From Chromohalobacter beijerinckii (GTDB lineage: Bacteria > Pseudomonadota > Gammaproteobacteria > Pseudomonadales > Halomonadaceae), in NCBI RefSeq assembly GCF_023061185.1, contig NZ_JAKGAK010000002.1, positions 248,001 to 312,000 of the forward strand: 64,000 nt of DNA. The letters are read 5' to 3'. Shown piece after piece: positions 30,035 through 35,749 of this stretch. Within the stretch, counting starts at the first letter, position 1; every line of letters starts with the position of its first letter. The notes beneath the pieces are model-generated. The model searched no databases. It was not told the origin of the DNA and worked only from the letters and a program-made list of their open reading frames with translations. The translations under genes and the position numbers were made by a program.

Positions 30035-30246
30035 GGGAGCATCCTCGGTGTCAGTTGTGATTGGCATTCGTGAGCCTCGATTCTTTAGCCCGGCGCTGTG
30101 CGGCGTCAACTCGTTTTCCCGCGCCGCGCTGAAAGGTTCCACCGATATCGTGCATCGCGAAAAACGATTGGACCGCGCCTCGTGGGCTTTCTTAGAGTGA
30201 AATATCCAAACCGTGAAAGCCGACGACAATAAAAGAGGTCACGTTC

Positions 30247-30999
30247 ATGTCCCTTCCGCTCCTCAACTGCGACATGGGAGAGAGCTTCGGCAACTGGAAA
30301 ATGGGCCTCGATGACGAGGTCATGCCCTATGTCGATTGCGCCAATATCGCCTGTGGCTTTCATGCCTCCGACCCCGACATCATGCGGCGTACCGTGGCGT
30401 TGGCCGTGCAACACGGCGTGCGTGTCGGCGCGCATCCCGCCTATCCCGATCTACAAGGCTTCGGGCGTCGCTCATTGGCTTGTTCGCCGCGCGAAGTCGA
30501 GGACATGATGCTGTACCAGATCGGCGCGCTGGAGGGCATGTGCCGCGCCGAGGGCACGACCGTGAGCTACGTCAAACCCCATGGCGCACTGTACAACGAC
30601 ATGGCCCGCGATCCGGAGCTTTTGCGCGGCGCCATGCGCGCCGTGCTGGCCTATGATCGCACCTTGCCGCTACTCGCCATGGCCACGGCGGACCCGGCGC
30701 CGATGCGGGCGCTGGCCGAGGAAATGGGCGTCACGCTGTGGTTCGAGACCTTCGCCGATCGAGCCTACGACTCCCAGGGACGGCTGGTGTCGCGGCGCGA
30801 GCCGGGTGCCGTCCACCATGATCGCGAGACCATCGTGGCGCAGGCGGTGACGCTCGCCAAGGGCGAAGCGCTGACCGCCAACGACGGCAGCACGCTGCGT
30901 CTAGCCGCCGATACGCTTTGCGTCCACGGCGATAATGCTGAGTCGGTGGCCGCTGTGCGCGCCATTCGTGACGCCTTCGATGGTCTGGCACGGGAGTGA
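30247..30999 (+). CDS. pxpA: 5-oxoprolinase subunit A
   Basis: A 250-residue LamB/YcsF-family protein. With PxpB and PxpC it hydrolyses 5-oxoproline to glutamate using ATP in the cytoplasm. Hallmarks are the opening [32 protein letters not shown] and [10 protein letters not shown], all intact. A GAGG ribosome site lies before the ATG. It is first in the pxpABC operon, with 212 bases to the divergent VOC gene. Confidence 0.93.
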
Positions 31000-31003
31000 G
31001 CCG

Positions 31004-31735
31004 GTGAGCGACCCAAGTATCGAAACGGTGGGCATGGACAGTCTCATCGTGCGCCTTTTCGACAACATCGACGAAGAGAATATGCCGTGGATGCTAGCCG
31101 CCGACCGAGCCTTGCGCGAGGCCTTCGGCGAGGCGCTGATCGATCTGGTGCCGTCCTACACCACGCTGCTGGTGCATTACGATATCCAACGCCTTGATCT
31201 GCAGGCCGCTCGAGCCCGGGTGAGCGAGGCGCTGAAAGGCCTCACGCCCGTGACGAGTGGCGAAGGCCAGCGGCATGTGATTCCGGTGTGGTACGACGTT
31301 AGTGTCGGGCCGGAGCTCGAGCGCATTGCCGAGCGTCTGGGGGGCAGCCAAGAGGACGTCATCGCGCGGCATTGCGCGCGGGATTACAGCGTCTTCGCGT
31401 TGGGTTTCGCACCCGGTTACGCCTTTATGGGGCGTCTCGACGATGCGTTGGCCACGCCGCGCCTGAAGACTCCGCGTCAGAAAGTCGCCGCCGGTAGCGT
31501 GGCCATCGCCGAGCGCCAGACGGCGGTTTATCCCACGCTCTCGCCGGGCGGCTGGAACATCGTCGGACGTACGGCTGTGGCACTGTTCGGGCGCGACCGG
31601 GAAGGCTATAGCCTATTTCGCCCCGGCGATAAGGTGCGTTTCGAGGCTATCTCCCGCGAGGCATTCATTGAACAGGGTGGCGATCCGACGCCACTGGCCG
31701 AGCGCGGCGACACCCCCACGGAGGCCCAGGCATGA
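31004..31735 (+). CDS. pxpB: 5-oxoprolinase subunit B
   Basis: A 243-residue KipI-like subunit. The domain ends with the typical GFAPGYAFMGRLD and AAGSVAIAERQTAVYPTLSPGGWN. The GTG at 31004 is taken as the start because GGGAG lies 7 bases upstream and it begins just after the pxpA stop; an open frame to 30935 would overlap pxpA. It overlaps pxpC by 4 bp. Confidence 0.9.
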   Translation: MSDPSIETVGMDSLIVRLFDNIDEENMPWMLAADRALREAFGEALIDLVPSYTTLLVHYDIQRLDLQAARARVSEALKGLTPVTSGEGQRHVIPVWYDVSVGPELERIAERLGGSQEDVIARHCARDYSVFALGFAPGYAFMGRLDDALATPRLKTPRQKVAAGSVAIAERQTAVYPTLSPGGWNIVGRTAVALFGRDREGYSLFRPGDKVRFEAISREAFIEQGGDPTPLAERGDTPTEAQA

Positions 31736-32655
31736 AGGGATTGATCGTCGAACGTGCGGGACCGCTGGCACTGATACAAGATGGAGGACGCTTTGGGGTA
31801 CGCCATCTCGGCGTGACTCAGGGCGGTGCCGCCGATTGGGTGTCGCTGGGATGGGCCAATTGGCTGCTGGGTAACGCGCCGCAAGCCCCCGGCGTGGAAA
31901 TTACCGTGGGCGGCCTGACCCTATACGCTGAGGCTCCGGCGACGCTGGCCCTGACGGGGGCTGATCTAGGCGCGACCCTCGACGATGAGCCATTAGTGCC
32001 AGGGTGCCGCTTTACGATCGCTGCCGGGCAGCGCCTGGCGTTCGAGAGTCCTCGGGCCGGTCTGCGTGCCTATCTCGCCTTTCCGGGCGGACTCGATGCC
32101 ACGCCGGTGCTGGGCAGCGTGGCCAGCACGGTGCGCGAAAGCCTGGGTGGGCTCGATGGCCAGGGGCGCGTGCTGACCGAAGGCGATTGCCTGACATGGT
32201 CGGGCGGTGCCGGCCCCGAGCGAACGTTGCCCTCGGGGGTGGGCACGTTACCCGGCGATGGAGAGCGCGTGACGTTGGCGCTGGTCGGCGGCGCGCAAAT
32301 TGCCGATTTCAGCGGCACCAGCGTATTCGAGGCCTTCAATACCGCTTGGACAATCGATCAACGCACCGACCGCATGGGCGTGCGCCTGACCGGCCCCGAG
32401 CTGCATTATCAGGGCGAGGGAATGGTCTCCGAGGGAATTCCGCTGGGTGCCGTCCAGGTGCCCGCCGATGGGCAGCCCATCATTTTGCTCAACGACCGCC
32501 AGACCATTGGGGGTTATCCGCGACTCGGTGCGCTGACGCCGCTGGCCTGCTCGCGCTTGGCGCAATGCCAGCCGGGCACCGAGGTATGGCTGACACCGGT
32601 GGCGGCGGGGCAGGCGCGTGATGTCCACCTGCGTCAGTTGGCGTGCTGGGGCTGA
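31732..32655 (+). CDS. pxpC: 5-oxoprolinase subunit C (biotin-dependent carboxyltransferase-like)
   Basis: A 307-residue KipA/AHS2-family protein beginning with VERAGPLALIQDGGRFGVRHLGVTQGG and ending with LNDRQTIGGYPRLGALTPL, both diagnostic. It completes the ATP-dependent 5-oxoprolinase. Translation is coupled to pxpB by ATGA overlap. Confidence 0.92.
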   Translation: MKGLIVERAGPLALIQDGGRFGVRHLGVTQGGAADWVSLGWANWLLGNAPQAPGVEITVGGLTLYAEAPATLALTGADLGATLDDEPLVPGCRFTIAAGQRLAFESPRAGLRAYLAFPGGLDATPVLGSVASTVRESLGGLDGQGRVLTEGDCLTWSGGAGPERTLPSGVGTLPGDGERVTLALVGGAQIADFSGTSVFEAFNTAWTIDQRTDRMGVRLTGPELHYQGEGMVSEGIPLGAVQVPADGQPIILLNDRQTIGGYPRLGALTPLACSRLAQCQPGTEVWLTPVAAGQARDVHLRQLACWG

Positions 32656-32692
32656 CGGACAATCTATAAGCGGCGAGCTCGATATTTTATTT

Positions 32693-32722
32693 CCCGTATT
32701 GCAAATTAATTTGCAATACGGG
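32693..32722. promoter_or_regulatory. Perfect 30-bp palindrome, probable RpiR operator
   Basis: A 15-base half beginning CCCGTATTGCAAATT is followed immediately by its exact reverse complement. It lies 38 bp after pxpC and 60 bp before the RpiR gene start, in locally AT-rich DNA (GATATTTTATTT precedes it). Size, symmetry and place suggest an operator, probably for autoregulation by the RpiR protein. As RNA it would also form a 15-bp hairpin, but without a T-tract. Confidence 0.8.
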
Positions 32723-32782
32723 AGGCGGATGCCTAATCTGGAAGCAGAACCCTTTCAGGGAATGGTGTCAGGAGCCCGCCCC

Positions 32783-33700
32783 ATGTCCGCCGAGAATGTC
32801 GACTTGCCTCCCCGGCGCTATGCCGACCTGCAACTGCTGGCGCTGCGTGCTCGACGTGGTGACGCCGCCGACCTGAAGCTTTCCGCTAAGGGACTCGCTT
32901 TGCTCGAGGCCCTATTGGCCCAGCCCGAGGCCGTGAGCCTGTCGGGTATCTCGCAATTGGCGCAGCACCACGGCGTGAACCCTTCGCGCCTGACGCGGTT
33001 GGCGCACGCCCTCGGCCTGGAGGGGTTCAAGGCGCTACAGGCGCTATTTCGTGAGGATCTTAGCGATAGCGCCTTCTATTCCACGCGTGCCCAGCGTTTG
33101 CTGGATTTCGGCGAGACGCCTCGGGCAGAAGGCGACGCGCTGTCCGACGACCGCGCGCTATGGCAGCAAGAGATGCAAAATCTCTCGGCCACCGTGGAGG
33201 CGCTGGACACGACGCAACTGGCAGCGGCAGTGGCTAGCATCCAGCGGGCCCGGCGTGTCCACGTCATCGGCCTGCGGGCCAGCTTCGGGGCCGCGCATTA
33301 CCTGGCGTATTACCTGGATTATCTGCGCGATGGTGTGCACCTGGTCTCGGGACACGCCGGTGTCAGCATCGAGCAGGCATTACGGCTGGGCGAAGACGAT
33401 CTAGTGATCGGCATTGCCTTTAGGCCCGAGTCGCGGATGAGCATCGACTACTGCCGGCTGGCGGTGGAGCAGGGCGCCTCGCTGCTGGCGTTGACGAACC
33501 ATTCCAACTCGCAGCTGGCCGCGTTGAGCGAATCGACGCTGCTTGCGCCGGCCGAGGGCGCCTTCTTCTTCAACCCCATGAGTAGCCTGTTCATGCTCGT
33601 CGAGCTGTTGCTGTCCCGCGTGGCTCGAGAGATGGGGCATGACGCAGTGCTTGCCTTGCGTCAGCGCGAGGCGCTGATCTCGCGTCTGCACGTCGAGTGA
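32783..33700 (+). CDS. MurR/RpiR-family transcriptional regulator
   Basis: A 305-residue regulator with an N-terminal HTH_6 domain (SLSGISQLAQHHGVNPSRLTRLAHALGL, about residues 40-68) and a C-terminal SIS sugar-phosphate domain (RARRVHVIGLRASFGAAHYL). The ATG at 32783 follows AGGAG by 8 bases; a start at 32729 right behind the palindrome is an alternative and would add 18 residues. It precedes an aminotransferase by 46 bp. Together with pxpABC, this suggests control of an amino-acid or amino-sugar catabolic set. Confidence 0.85.
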   Translation: MSAENVDLPPRRYADLQLLALRARRGDAADLKLSAKGLALLEALLAQPEAVSLSGISQLAQHHGVNPSRLTRLAHALGLEGFKALQALFREDLSDSAFYSTRAQRLLDFGETPRAEGDALSDDRALWQQEMQNLSATVEALDTTQLAAAVASIQRARRVHVIGLRASFGAAHYLAYYLDYLRDGVHLVSGHAGVSIEQALRLGEDDLVIGIAFRPESRMSIDYCRLAVEQGASLLALTNHSNSQLAALSESTLLAPAEGAFFFNPMSSLFMLVELLLSRVAREMGHDAVLALRQREALISRLHVE

Positions 33701-33746: not shown

Positions 33747-35078
33747 ATGACCACTTCTGTCTCTGCCTCCGATGTCCCAGGGCCCGCTCCCAGCGCTGCC
33801 GAATGGCTGGACCGGGGCTACGCCGACGATCACAACGCCACCGCCGCCTCGGATACGCTCTTGATCAACGAGCAGTCGCGTCTACTCGAAACGCAGGGGC
33901 GGCGCATCACCAAGTTCGGTTTCGGCCAGTCGCCATTTCCGGTCTTTCCCCCTGCGGTGGAGACGCTGGCCGAACACGCCGCCGACAAAGCCTACCTGCC
34001 GGTGCAGGGTATGGCGGCGCTGCGCGAACAGGTGGCGGCTTTCCATCGCCACCTGGAGGGCACCGATTGGCGAGCCGAACGCGTGTTGATCGCCCCGGGG
34101 AGCAAGCTGCTGCTGTTTGCACTGATGAAGGCCCTGCCACGTGCCGAAGTGCTCATTCCGGCGCCGGCCTGGGTCTCCTATGCGCCACAAGCGCGACTCG
34201 CGGGACAGCCGGCGGTGAGGCTGGAAACAAGCTTCGATAGCCGCTGGCTGGTTACGCCGGCACAGCTCGACCGGCATTGCCGTGAGCATGGCCCGAGTCT
34301 AAGGCTGCTGATCCTCAATGCGCCTGGCAACCCCACGGGGCTGTCGTATGAGCCCGAGATGCAGCGTGAACTGGCCGCGGTCGCCAAGCGCCATGGCGTG
34401 CTGGTGCTCTCCGACGAGATCTACGGGCCGCTTCATCACCGCGGAGAACATCGTCCCTTCGCACTCGATTACCCCGAGGGTACGTTGACCACTAGCGGGC
34501 TTTCCAAGTGGTGTGGTGCCGGGGGGTGGCGCTTGGGTGTGTTGAATGTGCCCGAAGCGCTGGGCGATGCATTGTTAACGCGCTTGCTGGGGCTCGCCTC
34601 GGAAACGTGGTCGAGCGTGGCGAGTCCGGTCCAAGCGGCGGCGATCACCGCGTATAGCGTGACGCCGGCGCTGGAAGCGTATCTCGAGGCCCAGCGGCAA
34701 TGGTTGAGTGCGATCGGACGCTGGTGCGCGCAACGTCTTGAGGCGGCTGGAATTCGCACGCACGCGCCGGATGGAGGCTTTTATCTGTTCCCCGATTTCA
34801 GTGCATATCGCGAGATACTACGAGCGCGTGGGATTGCCACCAGCGCCGAGTTGACCGCCAGGTTGCTCGAAGAGGCCGGCATCGCGCTCTTGCCGGGCAG
34901 CGCATTTGGCTGCGAATCGACGCAACTGACGGCGCGCTTGGCCTATGTGGACTTCGATGGCGGGGCGCTTTTGGAACGCGACTACCCCGACGATCTCGAA
35001 TCGGCGATGGCCGTGCCTGAGCTTGCCACGGTGCGTCATGGAATCGAGGCGTTGGTGGCCTGGTTGAATGGCGCGTGA
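33747..35078 (+). CDS. PLP-dependent aminotransferase, class I/II
   Basis: A 443-residue fold-type I enzyme. It has NAPGNPTG, the Asp-x-Ile-Tyr pair in LSDEIYGPLHH, the PLP lysine in SGLSKWCGAGGWRLG, and a C-terminal Arg in TARLAYVDF. The N-terminus is about 40 residues longer than in AspC-like enzymes. Substrate not readable from sequence; amino acid or kynurenine-type transamination are possible. A GGAG precedes the ATG at 33747. Likely co-transcribed with the RpiR gene. Confidence 0.82.
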   Translation: MTTSVSASDVPGPAPSAAEWLDRGYADDHNATAASDTLLINEQSRLLETQGRRITKFGFGQSPFPVFPPAVETLAEHAADKAYLPVQGMAALREQVAAFHRHLEGTDWRAERVLIAPGSKLLLFALMKALPRAEVLIPAPAWVSYAPQARLAGQPAVRLETSFDSRWLVTPAQLDRHCREHGPSLRLLILNAPGNPTGLSYEPEMQRELAAVAKRHGVLVLSDEIYGPLHHRGEHRPFALDYPEGTLTTSGLSKWCGAGGWRLGVLNVPEALGDALLTRLLGLASETWSSVASPVQAAAITAYSVTPALEAYLEAQRQWLSAIGRWCAQRLEAAGIRTHAPDGGFYLFPDFSAYREILRARGIATSAELTARLLEEAGIALLPGSAFGCESTQLTARLAYVDFDGGALLERDYPDDLESAMAVPELATVRHGIEALVAWLNGA

Positions 35079-35720: not shown

Positions 35721-35749
35721 GAAAAAGGCTCGCCATCATGGCGAGCCTT
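35721..35749 (-). terminator. Rho-independent terminator for the PRC-barrel gene
   Basis: On the minus strand the stem AAGGCTCGCC/GGCGAGCCTT is followed by TTTC, 39 bases past the stop of the leftward gene. Confidence 0.85.

Follow-up and report, generated by a model that had tools for sequence, protein, structure and literature searches.

What is the role of a long perfect palindrome standing between the 5-oxoprolinase genes pxpABC and a gene for an RpiR-family regulator, and does all of its symmetry reflect recognition by a protein? This question arose from a preliminary description of a 64,000-nucleotide stretch of Chromohalobacter beijerinckii DNA (hereafter the window, i.e., the whole stretch analysed), which had proposed the palindrome as the operator of the RpiR gene and as a possible connection between 5-oxoproline use and a nearby aminotransferase. 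Our comparative analysis points, with high probability, to an autoregulatory operator that governs an rpiR-aminotransferase operon. The kind of operator is an ordinary one, and the symmetry of its arms is its one unexpected evolutionary feature.

A single long palindrome upstream of rpiR

The 30-bp palindrome reported at positions 32693-32722 is present, and one further complementary pair extends it to a perfect 32-bp palindrome, TCCCGTATTGCAAATTAATTTGCAATACGGGA (32692-32723, without strand, zero spacer, centre at 32707.5). No other zero-spacer palindrome of the window comes near this length, the runner-up measuring 16 bp, and the longest one in 100 first-order Markov control sequences of the window's length reached 22 bp. 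A chance origin had been considered very unlikely, in agreement with our analytic estimate that 16 consecutive pairs are expected ~3e-5 times per 64 kb. The inner 18-mer, TTGCAAATTAATTTGCAA, has a single match in the window at up to 3 mismatches; a search of the whole genome, as suggested in the preliminary description, found it exactly once in 3.34 Mb, and the sole other place within 3 mismatches of it lies inside a 443-codon open frame. A dispersed repeat (REP/MITE) was rejected, since the palindrome is single-copy and the closest further matches, with 2 mismatches each, all fall within open frames of at least 120 codons; an RNA family was rejected as well, since the palindrome has no Rfam family at gathering score. 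Elsewhere in the window, between a DUF4168 gene and the next gene, the sequence AAGGCTCGCCATCATGGCGAGCCTT (35725-35749) forms a perfect inverted repeat of 25 bp around a single central base and is probably a two-way terminator.

The palindrome lies, as described, between pxpABC and rpiR, 36 bp past the pxpC stop codon and 59 bp ahead of the likely rpiR start. The pxpABC genes (5-oxoprolinase; 30247-32655, + strand) are neighbours outside the regulatory unit that we infer. The first gene of this unit, rpiR (32783-33700, + strand), encodes a 305-aa MurR/RpiR-family regulator with an N-terminal HTH_6 domain (PF01418, 3.2e-8) and a C-terminal SIS domain (PF01380, 1.4e-16), both matches exceeding Pfam's cut-off. 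This protein is the likely binder of the palindrome. An alternative in-frame ATG at 32729 has a Shine-Dalgarno-like stretch, but we favour the start at 32783 because 32729 would precede the predicted -10 box (see below). The second gene, 46 bp past rpiR, encodes a 443-aa class I/II PLP-dependent aminotransferase (33747-35078, + strand), for which the NCBIfam models, among the best 25 matches listed, fell far under their cut-offs.

The inner 16 base pairs are conserved in four genera

A 16-bp operator core with the consensus TGCAAATWWATTTGCA, represented in the window by TGCAAATTAATTTGCA (32700-32715, without strand), is kept upstream of the rpiR orthologues of Chromohalobacter, Modicisalibacter/Halomonas and Salinicola and, in a weaker form, of Onishia. 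We compared 38 RpiR orthologues (protein identity 54-100%), scoring the core by its matches to 14 fixed positions and retaining the best score within 200 bp upstream of the start. The best score was 14 in 19 orthologues, 13 in 4 and 12 in 9, followed by 11 in 3 (Salinicola G034, G060 and G011), 10 in 1 (Onishia G019) and 9 in 2 (G086 and G119). The preliminary description had named the absence of the site upstream of orthologous genes as evidence against an operator; instead, at least 12 of the 14 core bases were found in 33/38 cases, although these are related sequences and not independent trials, the four genera being nearer to independent units. This count includes genome G086, where the core occurs further upstream at 13/14, displaced because of an apparent insertion of >100 bp between the -10 box and the rpiR start (loci L123 and L077). 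In Salinicola rhizosphaerae (G119; L076, L142), rpiR is kept (56% identity) and both the operator core and the neighbouring aminotransferase are absent.

In control stretches taken from these loci, a core score of 11 was attained in 35/7,091 cases and one of 12 in 0/7,091, and dinucleotide shuffles of the same 130 bp scored at least 12 in ~0.2%. Upstream of the orthologues, the dyad is therefore better conserved than the DNA around it, as would be expected of an autoregulatory operator. The outer arms of the palindrome vary among orthologues. The earlier idea of an operator of the RpiR gene has thus gained comparative support for the inner 16 bp, but the full half with its exact complement is not the conserved unit.

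Within the genus (congeners compared include G001, G002, G003, G004, G007, G008 and G009), the sequence TTGCAAATWWATTTGCAA occurs exactly and in single copy in 9/10 Chromohalobacter genomes, always just upstream of the rpiR orthologue. The tenth genome, G005, has neither rpiR (no match at E 1e-20) nor the palindrome; because both are missing there, the aminotransferase gene directly follows pxpC at a distance of ~70 bp (L187). As a separate observation, three loci (L029, L031 and L034) carry, ~150-220 bp ahead of rpiR, a further dyad, ACATAC...GTATGT, followed by TTTAGCAAA. This dyad, upstream of the operator, has the appearance of a binding site for some other regulator.

The core overlaps a predicted promoter

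The right arm of the palindrome contains a predicted -35 box, TTGCAA (32711-32716, + strand), with 4/6 matches to the consensus, and a predicted -10 box, TAATCT (32734-32739, + strand; 3/6), follows it after 17 bp. Transcription would then be expected to start near 32746, placing the centre of the dyad at ~-38.5 from that start. This spacing is conserved: among the 35 orthologues with a core score of at least 11, the best -10-like hexamer after the right-arm TTGCNN (36 positions searched, with hexamer weights of our own) stands at 17 bp in 24, at 16 bp in 5 and at 18 bp in 5, and in the remaining one, G093, the best score is shared by a hexamer at 17 bp. G086, G119 and G019, with cores below 11/14 within 200 bp, are outside this count and outside that of the outer arms. 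A generic promoter scan called no promoter at rpiR. It is by the conserved spacing alone that the right arm is predicted to be the -35 box of the rpiR-aminotransferase operon and that the operator overlaps the rpiR promoter.

A degenerate third half-site, ATTTCC (32689-32694, + strand), overlaps the outer left arm; the right-arm half-site ATTTGC (32709-32714) follows it at a distance of 20 bp. When we scanned 34 collapsed sequences (from 42 with a core score of at least 11) for an upstream copy of ATTTGC in the same orientation, the score at distance 20 was 3.47/6, against an average of 1.65 for distances 12-44; the score at distance 12 was 3.79, but a copy there overlaps the left arm. In 13 distant homologues the peaks were at 40 (3.46) and 30 (3.38), i.e., further away by roughly two helical turns and one, respectively. 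An extra degenerate half-site at a fixed distance, here 20 bp, is thus found, which resembles in kind the SpNanR system discussed below.

Position alone would fit repression or activation. Activation by RpiR might be suspected from the weak hexamers, with 4/6 and 3/6 matches, and from the A+T-rich, partly conserved flank upstream of the core, and SpNanR of Streptococcus pneumoniae is described as an activator of the RpiR family whose half palindrome lies beside an UP element (preprint PMC12713135). Nevertheless, we regard it as unlikely because the core, centred ~-38.5 from the inferred start, covers the -35 box, so that a dimer bound there should obstruct the polymerase; moreover, in the same source, the sites of EcMurR overlap the -35 and -10 boxes, and both EcMurR and VvNanR are repressors (PMC12713135). 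Autoregulation is probably by repression. The two HTH domains of an RpiR dimer would contact the 16-bp core, with a tetramer additionally reaching the third half-site; by covering the -35 box, the protein would keep RNA polymerase off and repress both rpiR and the aminotransferase gene, until a metabolite bound to the SIS domain ended the repression.

The outer arms vary in sequence and are complementary all or none

Of the 32 bp in the window, 16 belong to the core, which leaves outer arms of 8 bp per side. Comparison of the 28 distinct arm pairs found in the 35 orthologues revealed a contiguous complementary run past the core of 8, 7, 6, 6 and 6 bases in 5/28 and of at most 2 in 23/28. The five paired cases (the window's type, G008, G009, G077 and G049) have arms that all differ in sequence (ATACGGGA, ATAAAGG, AACAGG, TAGATG and GAAATG), and permutations that re-paired the arms produced five such cases in 0/20,000 trials (mean 0.35, maximum 4). 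Long dyads of 28-40 bp, some with one inner mismatch, occur in Chromohalobacter, in one Modicisalibacter/Halomonas lineage and in one Salinicola lineage: the full length is 28 bp in G077, 38 bp in G006 and 40 bp in G001, and a single inner position is unpaired in the dyads of G007, G008, G009 and G049. The left flank tatttcctttat is identical in G008 and G104, which belong to different genera, whereas their right flanks differ and only that of G008 is complementary. Since G104 shares the left flank and has an unrelated right one, the right arm of G008 looks rewritten as a copy of its left arm.

Because the paired arms differ in sequence, sequence-specific contacts do not easily explain them, and the outer arms would add no specific contacts to the binding of RpiR. 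It has been described that template switching at quasipalindromes can turn an imperfect inverted repeat into a perfect or more perfect one in a single event, giving multibase compensatory changes (PMC7202029, PMC8794818). The all-or-none pattern of the arms is what such events, as presented in these sources, would lead one to expect. Arms extended to perfect complementarity independently of their sequence were seen in 5/28 arm pairs, three of which come from one genus and may not be independent. This pattern suggests a template-switch "palindrome perfecting", in which template switching during replication, at an already imperfect inverted repeat, would have made the outer arms complementary. 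We give an even chance to the broader proposition that the operator seeds template switching and that, with no selective pressure for contact with the protein, its flanks have been rewritten in three or more lineages. The likeness with the published cases lies in the perfecting of an imperfect inverted repeat; the difference is that those concern lacZ reporters and RNA genes, whereas in the present case an operator for a transcription factor would act as the seed (PMC7202029, PMC8794818).

Selection for a DNA cruciform or an RNA hairpin might also have kept the outer arms perfect, and the covariation of arms that differ in sequence yet remain complementary would suit it. We find this distinctly improbable, given that 23/28 arm pairs, including some from the same genera, have no contiguous pairing beyond 2 bases and that the element corresponds to no terminator-like site and to no Rfam family at gathering score; in addition, the element would be absent from the rpiR mRNA because it lies upstream of the inferred transcription start, which counts against a hairpin. 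If palindrome perfecting by template switching is the right reading, long perfect operator palindromes would overstate the protein footprint and record mutation rather than recognition; the all-or-none arms would then be a clear natural case, relevant to the inference of binding motifs from dyad symmetry.

The aminotransferase gene accompanies the probable operator more widely than pxpABC

The neighbourhoods beyond 1.5 kb covered 35 of the 38 orthologues (with only 2.9 kb upstream in G099). The aminotransferase gene lies directly downstream of rpiR in 34/35 of these loci, the exception being G119; the count includes G003, whose contig breaks inside rpiR, and is 33 without it. The core has no good match upstream of the aminotransferase gene itself (at most 9/14 in 33/33 loci), so its control would run through the rpiR promoter. 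We infer that it is the conserved second gene of the operon and a co-transcribed target of the operator. More distant relatives gave mixed indications. In G156, G125 and G032, homologues of RpiR (30-36% identity) and of the aminotransferase (50-57%) are divergent neighbours, with weaker core matches (11, 10 and 11 of 14, respectively), an arrangement that supports a functional pair. Counting against it, the order-level aminotransferase homologues in G127 and G139 had no rpiR in the flanks fetched. Likewise, the class-level homologues (38-50% identity) had none in 14/14 loci, with flanks of at most 1.5 kb, some shortened by contig ends; the substrate of the aminotransferase is therefore not readable from its context.

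A second target in the window's own genome was searched for with the core at up to 3 mismatches, and none was found. The search returned 44 places, against 33 for a reversed control pattern; one was exact, none had 1 mismatch and three had 2, all three inside open frames of at least 120 codons, which are common in this G+C-rich DNA.

Joint control of pxpABC and the aminotransferase gene by the site would agree with the presence of pxpABC upstream of rpiR in 9/9 Chromohalobacter and 9/9 Salinicola loci, with possible read-through from pxpC in this genome and with the adjacency of pxpC and the aminotransferase gene in G005. It has little likelihood in our view: the core was found upstream of pxpA in 0/18 loci (best match at most 9/14), a reverse-strand open frame separates pxpC from rpiR in some loci, and pxpABC adjoins rpiR in 0/12 Modicisalibacter/Halomonas and 0/5 Onishia loci, where the aminotransferase gene is adjacent to it. 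The suggested tie between 5-oxoproline use and the aminotransferase through this site consequently finds no support, as pxpA lacks the site and pxpABC is not next to rpiR in two genera. Upstream of pxpA itself, the best weak match to the core (8/14) is the same stretch, CGAAAAACGATTGGAC (30158-30173), in 14/18 Chromohalobacter and Salinicola loci; this stretch is thus itself conserved in two genera and possibly represents a separate pxpABC promoter or the site of another regulator.

The site follows rpiR beyond close orthologues

The autoregulatory reading, in which the site belongs to the rpiR-aminotransferase operon, can be set against one in which the operator serves another, unlinked regulator and RpiR is merely encoded downstream. 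A single-copy site would fit the dedicated operator of any regulator. Several observations make this second possibility very improbable. In 10/10 Chromohalobacter genomes, the exact site and the rpiR orthologue either both occur or are both lacking, and in G005 both are gone while the aminotransferase gene stays. Of 24 RpiR proteins related more distantly (30-37% identity), 10 carry an upstream core of 12/14, compared with 0.07/24 predicted from shuffles of these stretches; 11, on the other hand, score at most 10. A 22-mer searched at up to 3 mismatches matched in 14/196 genomes, and in 12/14 the match sits just upstream of rpiR. The other two matches, in G168 and G193, have no rpiR homologue within 16 kb and were taken as chance; that of G168 is inside an open frame which we take to resemble a membrane acyltransferase. 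Finally, in 648,924 bp of neighbourhood from 41 loci, core sites scoring at least 12 occur only upstream of rpiR homologues, except for two loci that had been fetched because of a pattern match.

The least credible alternative, an intrinsic terminator of pxpABC suggested by the position 36 bp beyond the pxpC stop in this genome, can be dismissed, since the palindrome lacks both a loop and, on either strand, a T-run (0 sites with a terminator-like stem-loop and T-run in 32560-32860) and since it still accompanies rpiR in loci where pxpABC is missing or lies ~500 bp further off.

Effector and comparison with known RpiR systems

The autoregulatory operator that we propose would respond to a metabolite through the SIS domain of RpiR, whose aligned sequence differs from those of solved relatives. 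The phosphate loop S-x-S-G, seen as ISQSGRSK in RccR, VSSSGSTK in VvNanR and ISYSGSKK in MurR, is replaced here by IAFRPESR (residues 211-218, the AFRPESR region), and R214, P215, E216 and R218 are invariant in 17/17 aligned RpiR orthologues. Because structure 3sho likewise lacks the motif (VSVWRYLR), S-x-S-G does not define the whole RpiR family. In four RpiR members compared in PMC12713135, the effectors described are phosphorylated carbohydrates that occupy the same binding site. Given an SIS domain without the phosphate loop, a different kind of effector may therefore be expected here, possibly an amino acid or 2-oxo acid related to the aminotransferase. We found no literature linking RpiR with 5-oxoproline, and no study of a halophile RpiR-aminotransferase locus was evident (Halomonas, Chromohalobacter, TGCAAAT), in searches that covered subscription papers thinly. 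The predicted operator and its partner gene provide something concrete and testable for this halophile pair.

Among the characterized members of the family, Pseudomonas RccR recognizes TGTAGT/ACTACA sites in 15-bp and 28-bp forms and HexR recognizes TTGT-N7-8-ACAA (PMC5489143). They share with our system the RpiR family and short palindromic sites and, in the case of RccR, a 28-bp site that encloses a 15-bp one ahead of rccR itself; by contrast, these regulators are described as controlling several operons and responding to KDPG (PMC5489143), whereas we find one strong site per genome, and the S-x-S-G loop of RccR is not kept in this RpiR protein. EcMurR, an RpiR repressor for which a tetramer has been proposed to bridge two adjacent sites overlapping the -35 and -10 boxes, resembles the present case in its family, its promoter-overlapping sites and the proposed bridging; it differs in that its two sites are 17 bp apart and control cell-wall recycling (PMC12713135), and its SIS loop is unlike the one found here. 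SpNanR binds an 18-bp near-palindrome and a degenerate half palindrome at a distance of ~23 bp, and a tetramer bridging the two has likewise been proposed (PMC12713135). The half-sites are not the same (TCTGAAA versus TGCAAAT here), the half palindrome stands ~23 bp downstream in SpNanR and 20 bp upstream here, and SpNanR activates sialic acid genes, whereas here the core covers the predicted -35 box and the partner gene is an aminotransferase gene (PMC12713135 for SpNanR). Both systems nevertheless combine an RpiR protein, a near-palindrome with a central TpA step and a nearby degenerate half palindrome (PMC12713135).
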